Below the pieces are notes generated by a model, which had not been told where the DNA came from, searched no databases, and saw only the letters and a list, made by a program, of their open reading frames with translations. A program made the translations under genes and the position numbers. Below, one piece after another: positions 10,740-63,708 of a stretch of 63,708 bases of DNA. The DNA comes from Akkermansia muciniphila (GTDB lineage Bacteria; Verrucomicrobiota; Verrucomicrobiia; Verrucomicrobiales; Akkermansiaceae), in NCBI GenBank assembly GCA_945860285.1, contig CAMAQB010000007.1, forward strand, positions 1 to 63,708. Reading direction: 5' to 3'. How positions within the stretch are numbered: the first letter of the stretch is position 1; the number at the start of each line of letters is the position of its first letter.

Positions 10740-11222
10740 TGTCGGACGCAGAGTAAACGATGCGCCATTCAAGGCAAGCTGCTTTTCTGAACACGGCGAT
10801 CAAGTTAGGGAAAAGCATCACCTTTGGATCGGTCGCATTTTCAACCACAAGCGGTTTCCGCTCACGGGAGGAGATATCCGCTCACGGGAGGAGATAGCGA
10901 AATTGACAACAAGCATATCATTCCGCGGATGCTACATGAATCTCCTGCTCGACAACATATGATTTCAAGCCTTTTCCTGCTCACTCAGCACGGCTCACCG
11001 ATCACTTCGAGTGCGTATATCAACCAGCGAATCCCAGTCCGCGAATCGCCCGTCTAGGGCACCTGATATCGCAATCGCGTGAGGCAAAGCCTTTTACGCG
11101 ACGCGACACACGATTCCTGAAAACTTCCTTGCTATCACGGCGTTTTTTGCTTTTTCTATCGATGTCACCCCCGCCTGATATCACCTTGCGGGTGCCTACT
11201 AATAAAATCTGTTGGCTCAAAA
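10740..11222. other. gene-free stretch with a 20-bp tandem duplication
   Basis: This is 483 bp between the orphan permease and the next plus-strand gene. No convincing open frame is seen on either strand. It contains one exact 20-bp tandem duplication (10857-10896) and otherwise nothing recognisable. Composition is more A+T rich than in flanking genes. Confidence 0.6.
10857..10896. repeat. two exact tandem copies of a 20-bp unit
   Basis: The unit TCCGCTCACGGGAGGAGATA occurs at 10857-10876 and again, base for base, at 10877-10896. It lies in the divergent intergenic region. Two identical adjacent copies may be a recent slippage duplication or a paired binding site. Confidence 0.9.
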
Positions 11223-51990: not shown

Positions 51991-52338
51991 TTATTCGGGC
52001 AGGCCGAGATTGAACCCTTGGAAGTGAATCGGATCACTCTTGGCAAACATGAACAGGAAAATCATGAACGCGAAGAACACAAGGGCTCCGAAGAAAATCC
52101 AATAGATCGCCTTCTTCTCATGATTCAAGTGCATGAAAACGTAAGCCACCAGCGTTGACTTGAAGGTGGCGATCGACAGCCCGAGCATCATGTCCCATTT
52201 GTCGAAGCCATGGTCGCCGACATCCAAGGCCGGAATCACCGCAACCGCGACGGTCACGCCAGTGAAAATGAAGAGAATCAGACCGATCGCGACGTAGATC
52301 TTGGCGGTTTTTTTGATGTGTTCTATGGAGTCAGCCAT
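51991..52338 (-). CDS. cytochrome c oxidase subunit IV (prokaryotic type)
   Basis: This is a 115-residue protein with three transmembrane helices (KIYVAIGLILFIFTGVTVAVAV, MMLGLSIATFKSTLVAYVFMHL, AIYWIFFGALVFFAFMIFLFMFA). The ATFKSTLVAYVFMHL segment is the signature of the bacterial COX4/CyoD-like group found with caa3-type oxidases. It lies between the subunit III and two small membrane protein genes, all in the same direction. Its role is structural, stabilising the CuB site region, as known for the family. Confidence 0.85.
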   Translation of the reverse strand: MADSIEHIKKTAKIYVAIGLILFIFTGVTVAVAVIPALDVGDHGFDKWDMMLGLSIATFKSTLVAYVFMHLNHEKKAIYWIFFGALVFFAFMIFLFMFAKSDPIHFQGFNLGLPE

Positions 52339-52372
52339 GGTGATAAAAAGAATGTCGTTGCGGGAAATCGGG

Positions 52373-53956
52373 TTACATCAAATACAAAATCGGGAACAGG
52401 AAGATCCAGACCAGGTCGACGAAGTGCCAGAACAGTCCGCCTACTTCCACACGGTTGGCGAGCCATTCGGGATTACTGAGATACATTTTCCTACCCCGGA
52501 AGAGATAATAACCGAGCACAGCCGCACCGCCGACCACGTGCAGACCGTGAAGGAAGGTCATGGTGAAATAGATTGCATAATAAGTGTTCCAAGCCGGGGT
52601 GAATTTTCCGCTCAGGAAAACCAGCTCGCGCGGAACGTGCAGGTGGGGAAATGTATGATGCTCGGCGCGGGATTTGTAATCAGGTCCTTTGAACTCCTCG
52701 AGCATATTGAACTTCTGTTCGCCCTTGCCGACACCCTCTGCTTTTGCAACAAAGTCCTTCCAGCCGATGCGGTAGCGTTCGGTGAGCGTCGGAACCCGAT
52801 TTGCCTTGCCATGCTCATCGACGCCGTATTTGTCGAGCAGCTCTTTCTCCAGTGCGACCATTTGCTCCTTGTTCCATTCCCAAGCCTCTTTCGCTTCCTC
52901 GCTGTGCTTGATCAGCCAGGTGTTCTCAATCGCAACCTCCGGATCAACGCCTTTTTTTTCCGCCTGCATGACCACATGACGGAAGTCGATGGCATCAAGG
53001 TTGTGAAATGCGACCGGGCTCTCCTCTAGAGCGCCGTCGATCACCGTGTCGTCGCGCAACCGCGACTGCGTCGCCCCCTCCTTGATGTCGCGATGTTTGA
53101 ACCACAGCAGCGCGGGAGGATCCAGCAGAAAGCTGATGCTCGAGGCCTCGGGCTTCAATTGTGATGCGATGCTTGCGGGATCCACATTGACAGCGGAGGC
53201 GATCTGCCAGCCTTTTTTGCCGGCGTTTTCCGCTTTGTCTTTTGCCGTCTTCCACTCGGCGCGAAGGGCATCCGTCCGGACTTCCGCATTGTTTGCACGG
53301 GCATCCAAGTGAATTTTCTGGATTTTCCGCAGAAGAGCCAGCGTCAGTTCCGAGCCTTTGGTTACCGTGTCACCATCCAGTTTCAAATCCTCCGCCAGCA
53401 CCACCTTCGATTTAGCATCCGCCGCCTGGCGAATTACCTCTTCGACCCAGGGTTTGTGGTAGCGCACGGTGCTGAAACTCACTTTCTCCGCCTTCACCAA
53501 AATCACATCGGCCTCCACCTTTTCGCCCTTTTTGTCCTTTGCGTGTTCCGATTTGTCAAGGTGACCCTCGAGGATGGTATAGTCACTCAGCCGCACGGCT
53601 TGGTGATGCCATTTGACATTGTATTCCAATGCCTTCAAGCCCATGAAAATGGCGGCACACATCACGGTCAGCGACATGCAGATCTGGAACATCCGCCATT
53701 TGCGCAATTTAAGGCCGACCCAGGCGAAGACCACTGTCACCGACGAAAAGATCAGCACGAAGGTATTGATCAAACCGGGCATCACCGGCAGGGCGCGCTC
53801 GGGCCATGGATAGTCGGCTCCGAGGCGAAGGTAAATGTAGGAAGAAAAGAATCCGCCGAAAAGCATCACCTCCGATGCCAGGAACAGCCAGATGGCGATT
53901 TTGGAATTCACCATTCCAGTGTCCTTGCGAGGCGTGTAAATATAAGGAATTTCCAT
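52373..53956 (-). CDS. coxC: cytochrome c oxidase subunit III with a large soluble insertion
   Basis: This 527-residue protein is about twice the usual length. The N-terminal three helices are normal (SKIAIWLFLASEVMLFGGFFSSYIYLR, FVLIFSSVTVVFAWVGLKLR, FQICMSLTVMCAAIFMGLKALEYN) and the last two resume at about residue 454 (YYAIYFTMTFLHGLHVVGGAAV, GGLFWHFVDLVWIFLFPILYLM), including the conserved HGLHV and WHFVD. Between about 120 and 453 lies a charged, mainly helical, lysine- and alanine-rich stretch with no membrane segment. The reading frame is continuous and in phase on both sides, so this is an insertion rather than an assembly join. The insert's function is unknown. Start chosen at ATG 53956 (MEIPYIYTPRKDTG). 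Confidence 0.9.
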   Translation of the reverse strand: MEIPYIYTPRKDTGMVNSKIAIWLFLASEVMLFGGFFSSYIYLRLGADYPWPERALPVMPGLINTFVLIFSSVTVVFAWVGLKLRKWRMFQICMSLTVMCAAIFMGLKALEYNVKWHHQAVRLSDYTILEGHLDKSEHAKDKKGEKVEADVILVKAEKVSFSTVRYHKPWVEEVIRQAADAKSKVVLAEDLKLDGDTVTKGSELTLALLRKIQKIHLDARANNAEVRTDALRAEWKTAKDKAENAGKKGWQIASAVNVDPASIASQLKPEASSISFLLDPPALLWFKHRDIKEGATQSRLRDDTVIDGALEESPVAFHNLDAIDFRHVVMQAEKKGVDPEVAIENTWLIKHSEEAKEAWEWNKEQMVALEKELLDKYGVDEHGKANRVPTLTERYRIGWKDFVAKAEGVGKGEQKFNMLEEFKGPDYKSRAEHHTFPHLHVPRELVFLSGKFTPAWNTYYAIYFTMTFLHGLHVVGGAAVLGYYLFRGRKMYLSNPEWLANRVEVGGLFWHFVDLVWIFLFPILYLM

Positions 53957-53996
53957 AGCAGCTTGAGAGAGATGATTGGCTCGGGCGATGTCCTGA

Positions 53997-55889
53997 TTAG
54001 TGGTGCACAGCGGGTACGGGAGCATCGGCAGCACCCGTCAGGATGGCGGGTTTTTCCCACTGCGGAGTGTAATCCTCTTCGGCACCCGGCTGACTGTATT
54101 CGTAAGGGCCGCGATAGACCGCCACATCAAAAGTGAAATTGCCGTGACCCGGAGGAGTCGGGGTCGACCACTCCAGAGTGGTTGCATGCCACGGGTTGTC
54201 GCTCTCGACTTTTTTGCCGCGGAAGTAGCTGAAAATGATGTTCACGATGAAAGGTAGCTGGAACGCAGCCATGATCCATGCCGAGGTGGACATCAGAATG
54301 TTGAGGTCGATGTGTTCGGCAACGGTTTTTCCAAAAACGTTGGCCGAATCGGCGGCCTTGGCGAGATAGGCATCTCCGCCATTATACCAGCGGCGGTGGA
54401 AGCCGGCCATGCCCTGCGTAAGCATCGGGAAAAACAATGTGTTCATCAGGATCAACGTGGGCCAGAAGTGCAGATGGTTCAAAAACTTGCTGGTGTAGCG
54501 CCCGGTGATCTTGGGATACCAGTGATGGACACCGCCGAAAAGGCCGAACAGAATTCCCGGCGCAACGACGTAGTGGAAATGGCCGATGACGTAATAAGTG
54601 TCATGCAAATGCAAGTCGACAAGGTTAAAAGCCAACGGCAGGCCGGTCAGACCGCCGATGCCGAACATCGGAATGAAAGCGCAGGCCCAGATCATCGGCG
54701 GGGTGAAACGGATTGAACCTCCCCAGAGCGAAATCATCAATGCTGTCAGCAGAATGACCGAAGGAATGGAAATCAGCACGGTGGTGATTTGGAACCAGGT
54801 GGAAATATTGGGTCCCATGCCGGTGAGATACATGTGGTGCGCCCAGACCACGAAGGACAGGACACCGAGCACGATCACGCCGTATACCATCGACTTGTAT
54901 CCCCACATGGGCCGACGGGTGTTGGCGGGAATGATTTCCGCCACGCAGGCAATTGCGGGAAGTAACAACACGTAAACTTCGGGGTGGCCGAGGAACCAGA
55001 ACAAATGCTGGAACAAGAGCGGGCTGCCGCCGCCAGAAAGCTCAACCAATCCCTCGGACTTGGTGAAAAGACCGGAAGGCATGAAGAAAGATGAGTGGAA
55101 AACGCGGTCGACCAATTGCATGATGCCGGCGGCCTCCAGCGGCGGGAACGCCAGCAACAGCAGGAATCCTGTCACCAGCATGGCCCATACGAAAAAGGGC
55201 AGGCGCATCCAGGTCATGCCGCGGGCACGGAGGTTGATGATCGTGGTAAGGAAGTTGACCGAACCGAGAAGCGACGAGGTGATCAACATCACCAGTCCAA
55301 TCAGCCAAAGCGACTGACCCGCCAGCCATTGATTGACGATCTGGCCATCGGCGAATCCGGCGAGCGGCGAATAGTTCGTCCATCCCGACTTGGCCGATCC
55401 CGATTCCAGGAAAAAGGATCCGATCATGATCAGCCCGCCCACAAGATACGTATAATAAGAAATCATGTTCAGTTTCGGAAAGGCCATGTCAACGGCGCCG
55501 ATCTGCAGCGGGGTCACGTAGTTTCCAAAAGCCCCGAATCCGAGGGGCACCACGCCGAGGAAAACCATGATGGTTCCGTGCATGGCTCCGAACATGTTAT
55601 AGGTATCACCCGTCACTTTGCCATCCTGCAGCCAGCGAGCCTTCCAGACATCGGTGAAAATCCAACTCATCCATCCCGGCAGCGGCTCGTGCGGATAGGC
55701 AATCGACCAGCGCATCACCATCATCAGGTAAAACCCGAACAACAGAAACAGCATGGCTGTGATCCCGTATTGAATACCGATCACCTTGTGGTCGGTCGAA
55801 AACACATACTTCTGCCAAAAGCCCGGTTCGTGGTGGTGTCCATGATCCTCATGATGGCCGTGATCTGCTGTGGCTGCTTGTGCGCTCAT
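53997..55889 (-). CDS. ctaD: cytochrome c oxidase subunit I
   Basis: This catalytic subunit of a heme-copper oxidase reduces oxygen to water and pumps protons. The 630 residues carry a histidine-rich N-terminus (HGHHEDHGHHH), twelve or more helices, the heme-a ligand in FGAMHGTIMV, the CuB/Tyr motif HPEVYVLLLPA, WAHHMYLTGM with the CuB histidine pair, and HDTYYVIGHFHYV with the heme ligands. Extra C-terminal helices and the tail (about 540-630) are like A-family caa3 enzymes. It is the first gene of the operon. A perfect TGTGA-N6-TCACA site lies about 160 bp upstream. Confidence 0.96.
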   Translation of the reverse strand: MSAQAATADHGHHEDHGHHHEPGFWQKYVFSTDHKVIGIQYGITAMLFLLFGFYLMMVMRWSIAYPHEPLPGWMSWIFTDVWKARWLQDGKVTGDTYNMFGAMHGTIMVFLGVVPLGFGAFGNYVTPLQIGAVDMAFPKLNMISYYTYLVGGLIMIGSFFLESGSAKSGWTNYSPLAGFADGQIVNQWLAGQSLWLIGLVMLITSSLLGSVNFLTTIINLRARGMTWMRLPFFVWAMLVTGFLLLLAFPPLEAAGIMQLVDRVFHSSFFMPSGLFTKSEGLVELSGGGSPLLFQHLFWFLGHPEVYVLLLPAIACVAEIIPANTRRPMWGYKSMVYGVIVLGVLSFVVWAHHMYLTGMGPNISTWFQITTVLISIPSVILLTALMISLWGGSIRFTPPMIWACAFIPMFGIGGLTGLPLAFNLVDLHLHDTYYVIGHFHYVVAPGILFGLFGGVHHWYPKITGRYTSKFLNHLHFWPTLILMNTLFFPMLTQGMAGFHRRWYNGGDAYLAKAADSANVFGKTVAEHIDLNILMSTSAWIMAAFQLPFIVNIIFSYFRGKKVESDNPWHATTLEWSTPTPPGHGNFTFDVAVYRGPYEYSQPGAEEDYTPQWEKPAILTGAADAPVPAVHH

Positions 55890-56048
55890 GTGTCTTTATT
55901 TTGTTAGGAAATGCTTAATAAGCCTTGTTTTTGAAGGAAATCAGCCATTTCATGCATGAAAAATCCCGCTCAAAACCAGGAGAATGTCCGACGCAAGGTG
56001 CACCTCGCGCAAGGGCTTGTAAAGTAAAAGATGCGTTTTGCAGCAACT

Positions 56049-56066
56049 TTGTGAAATTTTTCACAA
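56049..56066 (-). promoter_or_regulatory. perfect TGTGA-N6-TCACA palindrome upstream of the oxidase operon
   Basis: TTGTGAAA (56049-56056), TT, TTTCACAA (56059-56066). Read as TGTGA-AATTTT-TCACA it fits the classical binding consensus of the CRP/FNR superfamily. It lies 160-177 bp upstream of the subunit I start and 23 bp past the HNH stop, so it could be an operator or simply the terminator hairpin of the HNH gene. No CRP-like regulator is encoded in the window. Confidence 0.5.
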
Positions 56067-56088
56067 GCTTTCCCCCTGCCATGCTGGC

Positions 56089-56697
56089 CTAGCCCGCCGC
56101 GCCGACTTGATCGCGCGATTGCGGCATGAAATCGGCCCAGGCCAGTTCCTGGTTTTTTTCGCGAATACCGAAATCCGGCTTCCATCGCGGTGCCACCGGT
56201 TTGTTGCGCGGGTGCATGTTTGCCTCGTGAGGCAGTTTGTTGCCCTTGCGGGTGTTGCATTTGACGCAGGAGGTGACGATGTTCTCCCAACTGGTCTTGC
56301 CGCCTTTGTCGCGCGGGATCACGTGGTCGAGATTCAACTCCCCTTCCGTGAACGATTGGAAGCAATACTGACAGGTGTGTTGGTCTCGCCAGAAAACGTT
56401 GCGACGCGAAAAGGTCACTTCCTTGCTGGGGATTTTATCGTAAAGCGAGAGCACGACGATTTTGGGAATGCGCAGTGCGATCTTCACGGAGTGGATCATC
56501 TGCGGCTGTGGTGCCCGAACCGAATAGTTCAACCACGACTCGAAATCATGGGTCTCGAATTTTTCCTCGCCGTCTTCCTGAACCACCCGCGCATGGCCAA
56601 TGCTCAGCAGGTGAACAGCCCGGCGCGCCGTGCATGTCTGCACCGGCTGCCAGTTGCGGTTCAACACCAAAACGGCTTTGCTCAACACTTCTTCCAT
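56089..56697 (-). CDS. HNH endonuclease family protein
   Basis: This is a 202-residue protein. The N-terminal half (KAVLVLNRNWQPVQTCTARRAVHLLSIGHARVV) is the common lead domain of stand-alone chromosomal HNH proteins. The nuclease core has CQYC, the beta-beta-alpha-metal motif LNLDHVIPRDKGGKTSWENIVTSCVKCN and the zinc pair CVKC. All metal and catalytic residues (His of LDHV, Asn in ENIV) are present. This group is widespread, has no restriction partner here, and may act in DNA repair or RNA processing. The start is set at ATG 56697, not at the TTG six codons upstream. Copy B of the dispersed element lies 78 bp upstream. Confidence 0.88.
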   Translation of the reverse strand: MEEVLSKAVLVLNRNWQPVQTCTARRAVHLLSIGHARVVQEDGEEKFETHDFESWLNYSVRAPQPQMIHSVKIALRIPKIVVLSLYDKIPSKEVTFSRRNVFWRDQHTCQYCFQSFTEGELNLDHVIPRDKGGKTSWENIVTSCVKCNTRKGNKLPHEANMHPRNKPVAPRWKPDFGIREKNQELAWADFMPQSRDQVGAAG

Positions 56698-56774
56698 CGG
56701 CAACAGATAAACCAATACCTCATTATTGCCCCGACGACAAGAACGAAAGCGCGAATGCTGCCTTTCAGGCTGGC

Positions 56775-56928
56775 AACTTTCTCCGAAAGTTCCGGTGGGG
56801 GCAGCTTGCTTTCGTTCTCGACAATCCTTCCTGACTCACCCGCTTTCTTCGTGGATGTGACCGTGAGGTGAATGTAGTATACGCTATGGATATAATTATC
56901 CGCCCCCCACCGGAACGCTCGGAGAGGC
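56775..56928 (-). repeat. full copy B of the dispersed 154-bp element
   Basis: Read on the minus strand from 56928, it opens with CTCTCCGAGCGTTCCGGTGG, carries the TTCA step at offset 56 and GGTGAGTCAGGAAGGAT at offset 88, and closes with CGGAACTTTCGGAGAAAGTT. These offsets equal those in copy A (38573-38726), within two bases at the right end. The middle third is divergent between copies. It lies between the helical gene at 56948 and the HNH gene, oriented toward the HNH gene. Confidence 0.8.
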
Positions 56929-56947
56929 TTCCCTGCCTTTTGATGCC

Positions 56948-57655
56948 TCAGCCTCGCCCCGGGGCCGGGGCGGAGTCTTCGTTTTGGCGGGTGGGGTCTT
57001 CCAGTAAGGATTGGGTGAAGTAGTCCACCGCGCGCTCGGGGTGGCCGAGGTGGTGGGAGGCGATGGCAAGAATGTTGCGGCCGAGCTGGAGTTCCAGGAC
57101 GCTGCGGGCGGCGGCGAGTTCGGCGCGGGCTTGGGCGAGGTCGCCTTTGGCTTCCACTTGGCCGTCGCGGGCGCTGGAGTAGTTGGCTTTCAGGGCGGTG
57201 AATTCCGTCAGCAGTTCGGGGCCGAGCGCGGCTTTGTGCTTGTCGGCGGCGGTGATGAGGCGATCGAGAATGCCGGTGATTTGGCCGTGGCGGGCTTGGC
57301 CGATTTCCACCAATCCCTGCGGGAAAAACTCGGTGTAGGCGGCGCTGCCGTTGGTGAGTTTGTCGCGGATGCGGGCCTCGCGCTGGCGGACGGTGCTGCG
57401 GATGAGTTGCCGCGCCTCGATCTTGCTGATGGTGCCGCCGGCTTGGGTGGCTTGAAGGATGGTGCGGGCGGAGAGTTTCGCATCGAAGGCCTCGAAAGCC
57501 GCCTCGGTGGGCGCGGCAAGGGCGGCGATGACGGCGGGCGGGCTGACCAGCGTCGCAAGCTTGCCGCGATGATCTTCCGCGAACTGGCGGAGTTCCTCTG
57601 CACTGATTTGGCGATTGGACAGGTGGTTTTCAAACAGTCGGTCAATAGCAATCAT
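56948..57655 (-). CDS. hypothetical helical cytoplasmic protein preceded by a repeat array
   Basis: This is a 235-residue, almost entirely helical, alanine-rich protein with coiled-coil character (TALKANYSSARDGQVEAKGDLAQARAELAAARSVLELQ) and no signal or membrane segment. I do not recognise a family. The frame is open upstream through the 42-bp repeat array to a GTG at 57958. That extension would add a 14-residue repeat (consensus xVPVTKLSPxxTAQ), but the array is also open in other frames, so I place the start at ATG 57655 (MIAIDRLFENH). The C-terminus ends in a proline/glycine tail. The phased array 77 bp upstream probably controls it. Confidence 0.6.
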   Translation of the reverse strand: MIAIDRLFENHLSNRQISAEELRQFAEDHRGKLATLVSPPAVIAALAAPTEAAFEAFDAKLSARTILQATQAGGTISKIEARQLIRSTVRQREARIRDKLTNGSAAYTEFFPQGLVEIGQARHGQITGILDRLITAADKHKAALGPELLTEFTALKANYSSARDGQVEAKGDLAQARAELAAARSVLELQLGRNILAIASHHLGHPERAVDYFTQSLLEDPTRQNEDSAPAPGRG

Positions 57656-58147
57656 GATGGGAATTTCTGGCCAACACGCCGCGGCCTGACAAGCGAAAAT
57701 GTGGGAAAGCTGCCATCGCCCGGCGGAAAGCGGTGAGAATTTTTTCACCGATAATAATTGCGCAGTTCGGGCAGGTGAAAGTTTTGTCACTGGAACATCT
57801 TGCGCTATACGGACAGGTGAAAGTTTTTTCACTGGAACATATTGCGCCGTGAGGGCTGGTGAAAGTTTTGTCACCAGCACAAATCGCGCTAAGAGGGGTG
57901 TTGAGGGTTTTGTCACCGGCACAAATCGCGCTGAGAGGGGTGGTGAAAGTTTTGTCACCGTCTCCCGCAGCCCGGGATGGGCAGAAGTTTATCTTCCCAG
58001 CGACACCCACCCACCACTCCCTTGCTATTCGGCGAACACCCCGGCCAGTTGCCCGTGGAGATTTGCAATCGGTTGATCCATATGCAATCCGCGCTTGCTC
58101 ATGCCGTCGAGTATTAGATTGTTAGCGCGGCGGGCGTGACACCTTGA
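57656..58147. other. intergenic region holding the 42-bp array
   Basis: These 492 bp lie between purine nucleoside phosphorylase and the helical protein gene (both minus strand). The left half is the tandem array; the right part (57984-58147) has no repeat or gene that I can support. Confidence 0.6.
57732..57983 (-). repeat. six tandem 42-bp units, each with a GGTGA-N8-TCACC palindrome
   Basis: Units begin at 57732, 57774, 57816, 57858, 57900 and 57942, exactly 42 bp apart with no spacers. Each starts with a version of GGTGAAAGTTTTGTCACC, an inverted repeat GGTGA/TCACC around 8 bp; the last unit keeps only this part. A second conserved word is ATTGCGC/ATCGCGC, while the rest of the unit varies. 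42 bp equals four turns of B-DNA, which places all palindromes on the same face. Confidence 0.92.
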
Positions 58148-58882
58148 TCAACCCAGCGCGGTTTCCAACAACTTCACCATCACCGCAGCGGCAGCCTTTC
58201 CGGTCGATAGCACGTCTTGGTGCGACAAATGGCTCTCGTTCATGCCAGCCGCCCAGTTGGTGAGGCAGGAAAAGCCCAGCACTTCCATTCCCAGCGCCCG
58301 GGACTGGATGGCTTCGAGAACCGTGCTCATGCCGACGGCATCCGCGCCGATGGTCCGCAGCATGCGGATTTCCGCGGGTGTTTCGTATTGCGGACCCCGC
58401 AAGCCGGCATACACACCTTCATGCAACGGCAGGCCGAGTTGTCCCGCGTGGCGGGCCATTTGTTCCCGCCACGGTTTTGAGTAAATGGCGCTCATATCGA
58501 TGAAATCAGGCGCACCCTCCAACGGCGAAGTGCCGGTGAGGTTCAGTTGATCGGCAAGCATCATCCATTCACCCGGAGGAAAATTCTCGTTCAAGGTGCC
58601 CGCCGCGTTGGTGAGAATGACCCGCTTGACACCCTGCGCGGCCATCCAGCGGATTCCCGCCGTCACGGCTTTGGCGTGGTGACCTTCATACAAATGCACC
58701 CGTCCCTGCATCACCAGAATCGGATTGCCGACAAAGTTTGCGAACAAAAACCGCCCGGCGTGGCCACTGACGTTCGAAACCGGAAGACCCGCTTCGGCAA
58801 ATCCAATCGCACGATCAATGTGCAGATGGTCGGCTAACACACCCAAACCCGATCCCAGAACAATGGCCGTTTCCGCATTCAT
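58148..58882 (-). CDS. purine nucleoside phosphorylase
   Basis: This trimeric-type PNP of about 244 residues splits purine nucleosides with phosphate into base and ribose 1-phosphate. The start MNAETAIVLGSGLGVLAD gives the phosphate loop GSGLG. Further motifs are GHAGRFLFA, MQGRVHLYEGH (with the family's R-x-H-x-Y-E-G), LTNAAGTLNENF (base-binding Asn), GPQYETPAEIRML (Glu) and SCLTNWAAGMNE. It is shorter than many family members (about 270-290). The ATG at 58882 is used; the frame is open to 58939. It follows the MFS-acyltransferase gene by ten bases on the same strand. Confidence 0.9.
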   Translation of the reverse strand: MNAETAIVLGSGLGVLADHLHIDRAIGFAEAGLPVSNVSGHAGRFLFANFVGNPILVMQGRVHLYEGHHAKAVTAGIRWMAAQGVKRVILTNAAGTLNENFPPGEWMMLADQLNLTGTSPLEGAPDFIDMSAIYSKPWREQMARHAGQLGLPLHEGVYAGLRGPQYETPAEIRMLRTIGADAVGMSTVLEAIQSRALGMEVLGFSCLTNWAAGMNESHLSHQDVLSTGKAAAAVMVKLLETALG

Positions 58883-58892
58883 TGGATCAGGA

Positions 58893-61343
58893 TCATGACT
58901 GCTGCAGCGGCGTTGGCAAGAAGACAAAACCCTGGGCATCGATGGTGGTTCCCGGCGGAAGCAACAATCCGGTTTCCATCAACGCCGGACCATGCAGGCA
59001 GATCCGCCCGTCCTCACCCGGTTCGGTCGCAAAACCCGGCAGCAGGCGACCGACAGAACCCGGCTTGCAACCATACTGTGTTTCGCTGGTCTCGTTCGAA
59101 CGAGGCGGGTCGGGCATCGACATGGCAATCACAATCCCGCTCACGGCATAACACGGGCAACGACGAATTTTCAACGGCCAATCGATCGACGCGGAATCAA
59201 AATCATAAAAATACCCATCGCTCGCGGTATCCGCTGATTCGAGCAACAACCTGCGGGTGGCCTCCCCGCCCACCCTGATTGCGGAGGAAAGCACCGCATC
59301 CTTGTTCGTTAGAACTTCACAGCCAAACAACCCAGCGAAACCGATCCGCAGCGAGCCGAGATCCTTGTTCAGCGGATCACCGTCCCACATCGCAAAAGTC
59401 GCGCCGCGTTGCAACGCATTCACATGCCCCAACTGAAATCCATTCACCCAGAATGGTGCATCCGGCTTCCGCATCAACCCGGATTTTTCCACCCGCGCGG
59501 CGAGCGCCGACGCACTGGCCCGATGAAGCGCGTTTTCAAGCACCGCGATGCTGGCCTCGCGTGCGGGAATCGATGGATGAATCGCGATGGTCAAAGGGAA
59601 TGGCAAGGCACGCGGCAACTTGCGAAAGAACTTGTTGCGCTCGAAGGAAAAAATCGATCCCCAGGCTCCGTCCATCCACATCGGCACGATCGGCGCCCCC
59701 GCCTTGCGCGCCATCAGTTCGAAACCGCGTTTCACCTCCTGGAGACAGCCGGTTCGCGTGAGTTCCCCTTCGGCAAACAAGCACACCACATCGCCGTTTT
59801 CCAACGAGTCACTGACCGCGCGAACCGCCTCTTTCGCTTTGGTGGCGGAAATCGGCACGGTATTGAAAACCCGCGCGCCCCAGCCGACCAGGAAAGTATG
59901 CATGAATCCTTCGTACATCACGAATCGCACCGGACGATGGCAGGCGGCCGAGATCAAAAAGCAATCCGCCCAGGTCACATGGTTTGGCAGCAACAAGACA
60001 CCACCGGTCTCGGGAATGTTCTGCGCGTCGACAATCCGAATGCGGTAAATCATTCGCACAACCGGCAGAATCATCACCCGCAGCAATTCGGCCAGCCATT
60101 TTCTCACCGCCAGCAAAGCGATGATCGTGGTCAGCACAGCGAGAATCAAGAACTGCTCCTGCACGCGCAGCCCGGATTTCATCATTGTGTACTGGATCAG
60201 CACCGCGCTAATGCCGCCCACGTTGTTGAAGAAATTCGACACCGAGATCACCGTGCCGCGTTTCTCGGCAGGCGGATGGTCCTGCACAAACGTATTCACC
60301 GGCACCAGGAAGATGGCAGCCCCGGCTCCGGACAAGGCAAGGAAATGGGGAAAAAACCCGCTGCCCGGATGGATCTGACTCAGCACGTACAAGCCGCTGC
60401 TCATCAAAACCAAGCCGATCGGTGCCAGCGACCACTCGATCCCGCGTTTGCTCAACAAGCCGGAAAAAATGCTACCCGAGGCGATGCCCAAACTGGCGAA
60501 AAACATCAATTTTGAAATCGCTGATCCCACTTCATGCGGATGCAGGGCTCTGGAAATCTCGATCACCACCAGATTCACAAAGCCCGCGAAGGCCCAGAAG
60601 AATGCCGTGCCCAACGCGGCGAACCGCAATTCGCGATCCTTCCACACCACCGCCGAATCAATGATGTGGCGGAACATCAGGCCTCTGCGGAACGGCACGT
60701 CGCCTTGCGCACGGGTGCGCCGCATCATCTGCGCGAGCAGGGCACCGACAAGCGCGACTCCGGCAACCCACCACAGGGAATGAAGGGCGGCATCCCAGCC
60801 GTTCATCGATTTGGAATTGGCATCGAACCACACACCGCCGGCGATCTGACCGGCGAGGATTGCCAGAATCACCGTGCCCTCGACCACCCCGTTGGCAAAG
60901 GCCAGACGACGCGAGCCGACCAATTCCTTGACCACGCCGAGCTTGGCAGGACTGAGCATCGCACACTGCAGCGAGTAGAGAAAAAAACAGAACATAGCGA
61001 GCACCAGCGAGTGCAACATGATCGCCGCGCAGAGCATGAGCACCACCGCCCACTGCGCCCATGCGGCGGCTTTGATCACCACGCTTTTCGGAAAGCGGTC
61101 GGCAATCCAGCCTGCGGTGGGAGAAAGCACCAGATAGGGCAATACCAGCAACAGGCTGAGCACGTATTCCGTCGATTTCGCCAGCGCACCGCCCTGATTT
61201 TGCAAACTCAGCGATATCCCCAATGGAATGAGGAGAAATTTGATAACGCTGACCGTGAAGGAATTCTGCACCTGCATGCCGATCAACGCCCAAAATGAGC
61301 CCCAGGCCGGTTGTTTTTCTCCCCGATCAATCTCTCCGGTCAT
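58893..61343 (-). CDS. MFS transporter fused to 1-acylglycerol-phosphate acyltransferase, with remnant acyl-ACP ligase domain
   Basis: This is an 816-residue fusion. Residues 1 to about 410 form a 12-helix LplT-like MFS carrier. About 425-640 is a PlsC-type acyltransferase with NHVTWAD (His near 450) and EGELTRTG (about 524-531, in place of EGTRSR). The C-terminal 170 residues resemble pieces of an acyl-ACP synthetase: KPGSVGRLLPG, GRICLHGPALMETGLLLPPGT and DAQGFVFLPT. The ATP-binding loop and adenylation core are missing. Complete relatives (LplT-Aas fusions, more than 1,100 residues) flip and re-acylate lysophospholipids. Here only flipping and acyl transfer seem possible. It is divergent from the sugar kinase-MurQ gene. 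Confidence 0.85.
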   Translation of the reverse strand: MTGEIDRGEKQPAWGSFWALIGMQVQNSFTVSVIKFLLIPLGISLSLQNQGGALAKSTEYVLSLLLVLPYLVLSPTAGWIADRFPKSVVIKAAAWAQWAVVLMLCAAIMLHSLVLAMFCFFLYSLQCAMLSPAKLGVVKELVGSRRLAFANGVVEGTVILAILAGQIAGGVWFDANSKSMNGWDAALHSLWWVAGVALVGALLAQMMRRTRAQGDVPFRRGLMFRHIIDSAVVWKDRELRFAALGTAFFWAFAGFVNLVVIEISRALHPHEVGSAISKLMFFASLGIASGSIFSGLLSKRGIEWSLAPIGLVLMSSGLYVLSQIHPGSGFFPHFLALSGAGAAIFLVPVNTFVQDHPPAEKRGTVISVSNFFNNVGGISAVLIQYTMMKSGLRVQEQFLILAVLTTIIALLAVRKWLAELLRVMILPVVRMIYRIRIVDAQNIPETGGVLLLPNHVTWADCFLISAACHRPVRFVMYEGFMHTFLVGWGARVFNTVPISATKAKEAVRAVSDSLENGDVVCLFAEGELTRTGCLQEVKRGFELMARKAGAPIVPMWMDGAWGSIFSFERNKFFRKLPRALPFPLTIAIHPSIPAREASIAVLENALHRASASALAARVEKSGLMRKPDAPFWVNGFQLGHVNALQRGATFAMWDGDPLNKDLGSLRIGFAGLFGCEVLTNKDAVLSSAIRVGGEATRRLLLESADTASDGYFYDFDSASIDWPLKIRRCPCYAVSGIVIAMSMPDPPRSNETSETQYGCKPGSVGRLLPGFATEPGEDGRICLHGPALMETGLLLPPGTTIDAQGFVFLPTPLQQS

Positions 61344-61475
61344 GTGCGGCGAAACTAATCAGTAATCGCACCAATGCACAAGCCCGCATCCGGCACGATT
61401 GCGAATATTGCAAGCACAGACATTTTACGTCATTGCCCGGTTGCGTCGGTGGAGTCGATGTTTTACGATCACCCC

Positions 61476-63206
61476 ATGAGCCAAACTTCCACACGCATTC
61501 TGGGCATCGAGGGCGGTGGCACGAAAACCGACTGGGTTTATGCGGAAGAGGGCCATATTCTTCAGCAGGGAAAATTCGGCACGGGCAACATGCGCTTGAT
61601 CGATGACAAAACCCTGCTCGATTATTTTCAGCAGATGCCCGCTGTGGTCGATGCCGTGGGTGTCTATCTCGCCGGATGCATTACGGCGGCGGACCGGGCG
61701 CGACTGCAGGGGCTGGTGTCGCAGATTTGGCCCCGTGCCAGGATCAGTCTCGGCAGCGATCGCGAGTCGGGGTACGAAACGGTCCTCGGCAACGGCGACG
61801 GCATCATCACCATCGCCGGAACGGGTTCGTCGGTGATGGGCAAACGCGCGGGTCGAACCGAATATGCCAGCGGCTGGGGACATTTGTTAGGCGATGCGGG
61901 CAGTGGCTACGACATGGGCATCAATGCCCTGCGCCGGGTTTTGTATGACTTCGACATGCGCAAGGAGGTGCCGCCGGTTGCTCACGAATTCCTGCGCGCA
62001 TTGCAACTCAACACCTTGCGCGACCTGGTGAGCTGGGTGGCCAATGCCGATAAAAAAAACGTCGCCGCCCTGGCGCGGGTGGTTTTGAAGGCGGCAACTG
62101 CTGGCGATGCCGAGATGATGGACATTGTGGATCGCTGCACCAGTCAGGTGGCTGATTACACGGCTGCGGTGGCGCGACGTCTCGAACTGGAAAATCCACG
62201 GATCGGACTTGTCGGCGGGATGTTTCGATCCACGCTGTATCGTGCGGAGTTTGAAAAACACATGCTGCGTTACGGTTGTCACGCCACTTACGTCACCAAC
62301 AGCGACAATGGTGCTGTCGGTGCCGCCCGACTCGCCGCGCGTGCGATTTCCGCCATCGAACCTGTCGTGCATACACCGGCGGATGTCGATCTAACCGATG
62401 TGCGGGAAGCATTGACCGAGCAGACCAATCCCCGATCAGTCCGACTGCATGAAATGAACGCCGGAGAAATCGTGGACTTGTTCATCGATGAGGAGCGTTT
62501 TGTGGAAACGGCACTGCGCGAGCATGCATCGGCCATCGCCGCTGGCGTGCAACTGATTGCCCGGTCGCTGAAAGAGGGCGGTCGCTTGTTTTACGCAGGG
62601 GCAGGCACCAGCGGCAGGCTGGGGATTTTGGATGCCAGTGAAATTCCGCCGACCTTCGGCGCGCCGCCGTCCCTGGTGCAAGGAATCATGGCTGGCGGAG
62701 TCGCGGCAATCCACGGCGCTTCCGAAGCGGCTGAAGACGATGCCGGCGCGGGTGAGCAAACCGCCGTCCAACGCGGCATCCGCAGCGGTGATGTGGTCTG
62801 CGGCATAGCCGCCAGCGGTCGCACGCCCTTCGTGCTCGGTCTGTTGGAGAAATCGCGCGAGTTGGGAGCGCACACGATTTTTCTCACCTGCAATCCTTCG
62901 CGCCCCAAAACGTCTCCGCGCTGGGATGTGGAGATCGACCTGGCCACGGGACCGGAAATCATCACCGGCTCCACGCGTCTGAAGGCGGGAACCGCGACGA
63001 AAGTCGCTCTCAACATCCTCAGCAGCGGGGCGATGATTCTGTTAGGCAAGGTTCAGGGGAATTTCATGATCGACGTCCACGCCGGCAATGCCAAACTCCG
63101 CGACCGTGCGATCCGCATCGTCTGCGCGCTGCGGCAATGCTCCGCCGCCGAAGCCCGGGAAATGCTCGAATCACACCAATGGAACGTCCGCCAATGCCTT
63201 GTTTGA
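61476..63206 (+). CDS. murQ: BadF/NagK-type sugar kinase fused to N-acetylmuramic acid 6-phosphate etherase
   Basis: This is a 576-residue fusion. The N-terminal 300 residues are a BadF/BadG-type sugar kinase with GIEGGGTKTDW, TIAGTGSSVMG and GWGHLLGDAGSGYDMG. The C-terminal 260 residues are MurQ with the SIS domain: AGTSGRLGILDASEIPPTFG (from residue 376), MAGGVAAIHGASEAAEDD, GIAASGRTPFVLG and STRLKAGTATKVALNILS. MurQ cleaves the lactyl ether of MurNAc 6-phosphate to GlcNAc 6-phosphate and lactate, and the kinase would supply the phosphorylated sugar. The fusion therefore joins two consecutive steps of peptidoglycan sugar recycling. The start at 61476 matches the kinase N-terminus. Confidence 0.9.
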   Translation: MSQTSTRILGIEGGGTKTDWVYAEEGHILQQGKFGTGNMRLIDDKTLLDYFQQMPAVVDAVGVYLAGCITAADRARLQGLVSQIWPRARISLGSDRESGYETVLGNGDGIITIAGTGSSVMGKRAGRTEYASGWGHLLGDAGSGYDMGINALRRVLYDFDMRKEVPPVAHEFLRALQLNTLRDLVSWVANADKKNVAALARVVLKAATAGDAEMMDIVDRCTSQVADYTAAVARRLELENPRIGLVGGMFRSTLYRAEFEKHMLRYGCHATYVTNSDNGAVGAARLAARAISAIEPVVHTPADVDLTDVREALTEQTNPRSVRLHEMNAGEIVDLFIDEERFVETALREHASAIAAGVQLIARSLKEGGRLFYAGAGTSGRLGILDASEIPPTFGAPPSLVQGIMAGGVAAIHGASEAAEDDAGAGEQTAVQRGIRSGDVVCGIAASGRTPFVLGLLEKSRELGAHTIFLTCNPSRPKTSPRWDVEIDLATGPEIITGSTRLKAGTATKVALNILSSGAMILLGKVQGNFMIDVHAGNAKLRDRAIRIVCALRQCSAAEAREMLESHQWNVRQCLV

Positions 63207-63210
63207 TTTT

Positions 63211-63477
63211 GTGAAACTCCACGTCCACGTCAATCCGAACGTCAAACAAAACACCATCGTCGGCTGGGAACCGCATCCGCTCCACGGTCGATTACTGCGA
63301 TTGCGCATCGCCGCGCCGCCGCGCGAGGGAAAAGCGAACGAAGCCATCATCGCCCTGCTCGCCAAGGAACTCGGCGTTTCCAAGTTCTTGGTGTCGCTGG
63401 AAAAAGGAAGCGGTTCACGGGAAAAAACCCTCCACATTCCGGATCACTGCGTCTTCCCTGAATCATGGAATCAATGA
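63211..63477 (+). CDS. DUF167 (YggU-like) protein
   Basis: This is a small alpha/beta protein of about 88 residues: KLHVHVNPNVKQNTIVGW, then LLRLRIAAPPREGKANEAIIALLAKELGVSKFLVSLEKGSGSREKTLHI. The APPREGKANEA block is the signature of the DUF167/YggU family, whose role is unknown. No ATG is available in the right place; GTG 63211 is the most family-like start and TTG 63199 (overlapping the murQ stop) is an alternative. It follows the kinase-MurQ gene directly. Confidence 0.85.
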   Translation: MKLHVHVNPNVKQNTIVGWEPHPLHGRLLRLRIAAPPREGKANEAIIALLAKELGVSKFLVSLEKGSGSREKTLHIPDHCVFPESWNQ

Positions 63478-63708
63478 CCGTCGCGAGAAACGCACAAGCC
63501 AGTGTCGTTGTGATGCCTGCCGTTAGGGAAGGCCCCTCTCATGACTCACAAAACAAGCAATCGCGAGTTCCAAAAGCAAACGCAACGGTGAGAGAGAGGC
63601 CTCCGACAAAAGTTTTAAAATTTTCAAAAGAGAAAGGGTTGTTACGCCCCTTCCCTTTTGATGGGTAAGATGTTACCGGTTGTCTCCTCGTCCAAAATTC
63701 AACAGCCA
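63478..63708. other. right-end stretch without a supported gene
   Basis: These 231 bp after the DUF167 stop contain an A+T-rich near-palindrome (AAAAGTTTTAAAATTTTC at about 63608) and no convincing frame. The frame open at 63465-63668 has no family-like features. Confidence 0.4.

Follow-up and report, generated by a model that had tools for sequence, protein, structure and literature searches.

Short palindromic or tandemly repeated sites close to bacterial genes are known from several systems. Plasmid iterons and partition sites consist of phased repeats in whole helical turns, and multi-site cooperative operators present phased dyads beside a gene. REP, BIME and REPIN elements, together with RAYT, comprise short palindromic units that are intergenic, dispersed and patchy in their distribution, and GTAG or CGTC tags at one end of REP elements are described in an excerpt of PMC3733652. 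The type III toxin-antitoxin systems ToxIN, CptIN and TenpIN employ tandem repeats of locus-specific sequence directly upstream of one small gene, and an excerpt of PMC8860590 lists among the criteria for this type that a promoter precedes the array and a terminator follows it.

The Akkermansia muciniphila locus described here shares features with each of these systems and differs from each. As in iterons and partition sites, its repeats are phased in whole turns, but no recurrent Rep or Par family is found nearby and the adjacent helical protein has no plasmid or phage match. As in cooperative operators, phased dyads lie beside a gene, but the sites differ widely between homologues while the spacing is kept, and no known regulator is found. 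The units are as short, palindromic, intergenic, dispersed and patchy as those of the REP group, with Y1 transposases beside a few arrays, but their tandem spacing is fixed at 41-42 bp, the usual neighbor is an ORFan gene for a helical protein and most loci are without a detected Y1. Like the type III systems, the locus has tandem repeats of its own sequence directly upstream of one small gene, whereas the orientation of such arrays flips, no terminator between array and gene was found in the window, the protein is mainly helical and solo arrays occur. No description of such arrays was found by title or abstract in open-licence PMC papers, a collection that omits most subscription journals.

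In the window, that is, the whole stretch of 63,708 nucleotides that was analysed, the array is flanked by a purine nucleoside phosphorylase gene (58148-58939, minus strand) and by the gene for a 235-aa helical protein (56948-57655, minus strand), and lies upstream of the latter, 76 bp from its start codon. The features are as follows, the minus strand of the array being the sense of the downstream gene:

57732..57959, minus: tandem array of six 42-bp units, from the repeat search and core matches
57942..57959, minus: dyad A of unit 1, GGTGACAAAACTTTCACC
57900..57917, minus: dyad A of unit 2, degenerate
57858..57875, minus: dyad A of unit 3
57816..57833, minus: dyad A of unit 4
57774..57791, minus: dyad A of unit 5
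57732..57749, minus: dyad A of unit 6, nearest the gene
57918..57941, no strand: first 24-bp spacer and site of dyad B, whose axis lies 21 bp from that of dyad A; this dyad is weak here and clear in several related arrays
57687..57692, minus: promoter-like TTGTCA, on weak evidence and not reported by the consensus scan
56948..57655, minus: ORFan helical gene, 235 aa, from homologue alignment, with no family match above cut-off

The exact 42-bp steps of the six units, reported in an earlier note on this DNA, are confirmed by the core starts (57732, 57774, 57816, 57858, 57900 and 57942) and by TRF, which returns a period of 42 at the array; at up to three mismatches the core is matched six times in the window, against a mean of 0.08 in 100 shuffles. 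The last core stops at 57959, short of the array end at 57983 given in that note. Column agreement is 0.92 in the core and 0.71 in the spacer, which makes the earlier wording, a core far better conserved than the rest, fair and not extreme; the core at 57900 is degenerate and begins GTTGAGGG. In related arrays a second dyad is found inside the 24-bp spacer, 21 bp from the first, and it is weak in the window array. Several reading frames are indeed open through the array, with minus-strand ORFs of 336 and 122 aa and plus-strand ORFs of 125 and 88 aa. The 336-aa ORF is an over-extension, because the homologues align from a start at 57655, most likely the start of the helical gene. The array had been placed in front of an uncharacterised helical gene; this gene is there and the array belongs with it, but it lies on the minus strand with its likely start at that position. 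An Rfam scan of 52000-63708 yielded one chance match only. Elsewhere in the window, there is a perfect two-copy 20-bp tandem repeat at 10857-10896 and an HNH protein at 56089-56715, for which the best NCBIfam match, far below cut-off, is IscB.

The 235-aa protein has nothing above the curated cut-off in Pfam or NCBIfam, its TPR matches being weak and below cut-off; PHROGs and PDB sequences give nothing convincing, and plasmid and phage collections contain zero matches. The predicted structure is mainly helical and of moderate quality (pLDDT 74, pTM 0.54). A Foldseek search with this model retrieved no match at E<=0.001 (best 0.39), and a VIA re-check of the matches reached a best Z of 8.8, within the range of the tool for common helical arrangements. 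Profile searches identified the family in four of 10 genomes of the genus and in 30 of 386 genomes of the order (63 matches), and in phylum-wide samples it was detected in 2/288 and 2/387 genomes, the same two in both cases and both of this order. A peptide-pattern search of genome contigs returned only three loci, because the usable patterns are narrow. The dN/dS values of 0.09-0.35 across nine homologue pairs indicate that the protein is under purifying selection. In one clade (L157, L158, L162-L165, L171 and others), the in-frame N-terminal leader MARxxFAFFDSGVRFDSPDA is found about 75 bp before the aligned start, so the true start in that clade lies upstream; the leader motif filter was passed by 14 copies, two of them atypical. 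Long serine-rich C-terminal tails are present in homologues L146, L147, L148, L152, L154, L173 and L178. Other tandem repeats occur downstream of helical genes, of 69 bp (L098 near 1063) and 27 bp (L092 near 2555).

The analysis of gene-array linkage employed 51 homologues from the 63 order-wide profile matches; the 12 that were dropped comprise ten fragments without a start, a copy at a contig end (G471:C46) and a copy that has a start but whose sequence was not taken in (G405:C9). Two of the 51 have less than 160 bp upstream, which leaves 49 with usable upstream DNA. An array was called clear if the best upstream tandem segment scored at least 30 and faint at 12.5 or more, both scores having been set after seeing the data. 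Most members of the family have a tandem array directly upstream: the array is clear in 34 of the 49 homologues, faint in 4 and absent in 11, which mostly bears out the expectation that orthologues carry one. The periods of the clear arrays are 42 (19 arrays), 41 (12), 82 (2) and 83 (1), and those of the faint ones 84, 83, 42 and 41. At scores of at least 45, 30 and 12.5, arrays are found in 29, 34 and 38 of the 49 homologues, all in the 41/42/82-84 class. Control stretches from the same loci reach these scores in 4/381 cases (one of period 42), 9/381 (two of period 42, both arrays of neighboring gene copies) and 52/381 (five in the 41/42/82-84 class), and by a separate repeat statistic 11/408 controls reach 0.6 or more, the two of period 42 again being arrays of neighboring copies. 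Among the 43 homologues that match the profile from the start, the array is clear in 33 and faint in 4; of the 11 without an array, five do not match from the start, and one has an internal stop. Since the homologues are related, the occurrences of arrays are not independent events. Among the matches listed, nucleotide similarity between distant copies ends near the gene start, and the array sequences of distant copies differ widely. The phosphorylase gene and an acyltransferase gene are neighbors in 10/10 genomes of the genus, and only in the genome of the window does the helical gene lie within ~1.5 kb of this pair.

Although the sequence of the array turns over, its period remains 41-42 bp. 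Each of the 34 clear arrays has a uniform local lag, either 41 or 42, with two exceptions, a single 42 in G264:C22 and a mixture of 42 and 41 in G405:C103, and no drift of unit length beyond 41-42 is seen between relatives, a point on which the earlier note had made its reading depend. In a tree of 32 proteins, the three period labels require at least five changes and the well-supported branches force four changes for the 42 label; the gene tree implies at least about four conversions between the 41 and 42 forms. Both lengths are close to four turns of B-DNA. The number of units varies even between near relatives, in which the array measures 262 bp (G377) or 312 bp (G471), about 6.4 and 7.6 units. 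These patterns suggest that the spacing itself matters. Intrinsic A-tract curvature was considered and rejected, the mean AA/TT power at the 10.5-bp harmonic being 0.93, a value without a shuffle control that falls below the other four harmonics.

A unit search model built from the window array and three siblings detected additional arrays or isolated units on other contigs of that genome (C105, C117, C123, C39, C14, C110, C102 and C6); it also has matches in two of the nine other genomes of the genus and one weak single match elsewhere among 38 genomes. In most units of the 18 array loci there is an 18-bp dyad whose center, AAAA[CT]T, is nearly constant and whose arms vary between arrays (GGTGA/TCACC, TTCGG/CCGAA, TTG/CAA, TCC/GGA), and most also contain a second dyad centered 21 bp from the first. 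Some spacers contain CGTC. Among the 30 column pairs with the largest complementarity excess in 89 units, 8 fall on the two dyad axes, including the highest. When the two-dyad structure is placed on 77 of the 89 units, 68.3% of the cells are paired and 181 cells carry a double change, compared with 93 in shuffles, while the 15 pairs changed on both sides are no excess over the shuffled 14.0. The covariation score is 0.334 against 0.07-0.15 for slid structures, a control that flatters the two-dyad structure because the structure was read from the same sequences. In near relatives, each unit is composed of a pair of dyads, spaced 21 bp, with arms that covary. In a set of 33 gene-linked arrays, the consensus units exceed dinucleotide shuffles in dyad symmetry, with individual significance in 10 (p<=0.05) and none in 23; the combined p is ~5e-11 if the 33 arrays are taken as independent, which they are not. 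The window array alone gives p=0.076.

Mismatches within the dyads are nearly balanced, with 102 G.T and 95 A.C, but the overall test is not strong because the two dyads differ (48 G.T and 15 A.C in dyad A, 54 G.T and 80 A.C in dyad B). Folding is barely better than that of shuffled sequences (mean z -1.0 and -0.8, in a set that includes at least one mis-placed array). The orientation of the array relative to the gene in G557:C16 is opposite to that in G557:C34, the core being common to both, and the L090 array is opposite in orientation to that of the window; in G471 a single array contains the asymmetric core in two orientations, GCCAAAACGGC and the reverse complement GCCGTTTTGGC. The mismatch balance, the weak folding and the orientation flips together favor a site read as double-stranded DNA, and the data as a whole are less well explained by RNA, by protein coding or by a neutral minisatellite than by double-stranded sites on one face of the helix. 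The ten closest homologues have in common a CTTG[TC] motif 34-39 bp before the start, which may perhaps represent the -35 element of a leaderless promoter and would in that case place the array upstream of transcription. This promoter reading is weak because the consensus scan did not report the motif; it gave instead one minus-strand site, inside the array. No terminator was found between array and gene on the minus strand of the window (57500-58300).

Arrays also occur apart from the gene, which, together with the wide differences in array sequence and the 41-bp form, extends the earlier note. At 12 of the 18 array loci the contig has no helical match, some of them being near contig ends, and some arrays sit after a gene or between converging genes, so a promoter role is not the whole story. 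A second array model, which sees only arrays like those of the genus of the window, detected arrays or units in 7/386 genomes; the gene is present in 4/7 of these and in 26/379 genomes in which this model found none (Fisher p 0.0009, the two 386-genome samples being taken as identical), and in the three genomes with a match but no detected gene, two have a single match. Downstream of pyrG, 42-bp repeats are found in two of 10 genomes of the genus and are absent in eight: about two units in G000, and in G008 a near-perfect array of other units at a contig end. Several arrays are found within ~500 bp of a contig end (G000:C102; G005:C6; G008:C324, C302, C160, C288 and C148), so short-read assemblies are probably broken by arrays, and their number under-counted. 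Of 166 flanking ORFs, 146 were scanned, the other 20, from the window, L083 and L089, being excluded. Among the best 25 of 99 Pfam families by count, none occurs in more than two of the 146, a result that does not support the iteron-like or partition-like function once proposed. Defense families are scattered among these ORFs, and the PADLOC tally contains one possible Cas3-like match. An integron-like or defense-operon role was rejected: type I restriction genes do accompany two solo arrays (L079, and L080 with the array ~85 bp upstream of hsdR), but the neighbors share no family. A CRISPR array was rejected too, the 24-bp stretches being alike within an array and not unrelated spacers.

Several other explanations have to be weighed against this evidence. 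The array could be made of REP- or REPIN-like mobile repeats, with palindromes that form single-strand hairpins for mobilization by an IS200-type (Y1) transposase or a RAYT, and with the gene as a passenger; the gene-less loci and the patchy presence of arrays in close relatives agree with it, as do the Y1 transposases that accompany some arrays. An IS200-like Y1 transposase adjoins the arrays of L083 (7322-7774) and L089 (6607-7059), others are near those of L160 and L075 (the latter copy broken, with a stop), and a longer Y1-type ORF (L100:326-1738, Pfam Y1_Tnp), which we take to be RAYT-like, adjoins a 5'-truncated helical gene in divergent orientation. However, two Y1 queries match at only 5/62 loci, more distant divergent Y1 genes possibly being missed, no Y1 is among the families in at least two of the 146 flanking ORFs, and Y1 is therefore not needed for the gene-array pair; a short match in L159 falls on a part of the over-long query that runs antisense to the helical gene and was not counted as a transposase. 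An overall wobble bias is absent, the folding scores are low and a fixed tandem spacing of 41-42 bp is not known as a feature of REP elements, which leaves this explanation unlikely. The composite locus of L083 and L089, with a Y1 transposase, two helical genes and one array, is conserved between two genomes.

A neutral minisatellite carried along by a mobile ORFan gene would account for the different array lengths of close relatives, the fast sequence turnover and the arrays without a gene, but we consider it improbable: all 34 clear arrays have periods of 41, 42, 82 or 83, whereas tandem repeats reaching that score elsewhere in these loci have periods of 15, 18, 24, 27 and 71 bp, and the arms of the dyads covary. 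Still less probable is a type III-like toxin-antitoxin pair, with a repetitive antitoxin RNA transcribed from the array and the helical protein as toxin. The tandem repeats immediately upstream of a single small gene, varying in sequence by locus at roughly constant length, recall such systems, but the orientation of the array is not fixed, the promoter-like motif lies between array and gene, where no terminator was detected in the window, the modelled protein consists mainly of helices and lacks a family match, and gene-less arrays are common. Coding for a protein repeat of 14 residues (42 = 3 x 14), as the open frames of the window array might indicate, is scarcely credible, since the 41-bp period (12 of 34 arrays, and two more at 82) breaks the frame, the in-frame unit sequences differ between arrays and the orientation flips; the earlier note likewise held that coding does not explain the conservation.

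The best mechanism, which we put at somewhat less than an even chance, is a phased platform for a dimeric DNA-binding protein. In this model, the ORFan gene has a phased array of DNA sites tied to it. A dimeric protein would bind the array in its double-stranded form, cooperatively and always on the same helix face at intervals of two turns, and the bound array would set the expression of the gene or mark the locus; units would spread within the array by unequal exchange, and sites out of helical phase would get lost. The 11 of 49 homologues without an array, the lack of a recurrent neighbor family and the dyad symmetry of the window array (p=0.076) speak against this platform, as do the 23 individually non-significant arrays, the lack of excess in pairs changed on both sides, the arrays apart from the gene and the AA/TT harmonic, which is not raised. 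The helical protein may or may not be the binder; it has no DNA-binding family match and many copies are acidic, which does not favor the idea, put forward in the earlier note, that the gene may encode it.

The original observation is real and its extent larger than first noted, with an array tethered to a gene and conserved in spacing, not in sequence. More tentatively, the pair may constitute a new two-part element, composed of an ORFan gene and its own satellite and co-inherited across several families of one order, in which selection would act on the four-turn spacing and on the dyads and leave the base sequence free to change; on this view every array would carry an address of its own that a co-evolving partner reads, and a solo array would be such an address at another genomic position. 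Sequence is what normally reveals conserved non-coding DNA, and here the spacing outlives the sequence. These arrays would provide a natural case of selection on helical phase, and an ORFan family that lacks known domains would come closer to a functional assignment.
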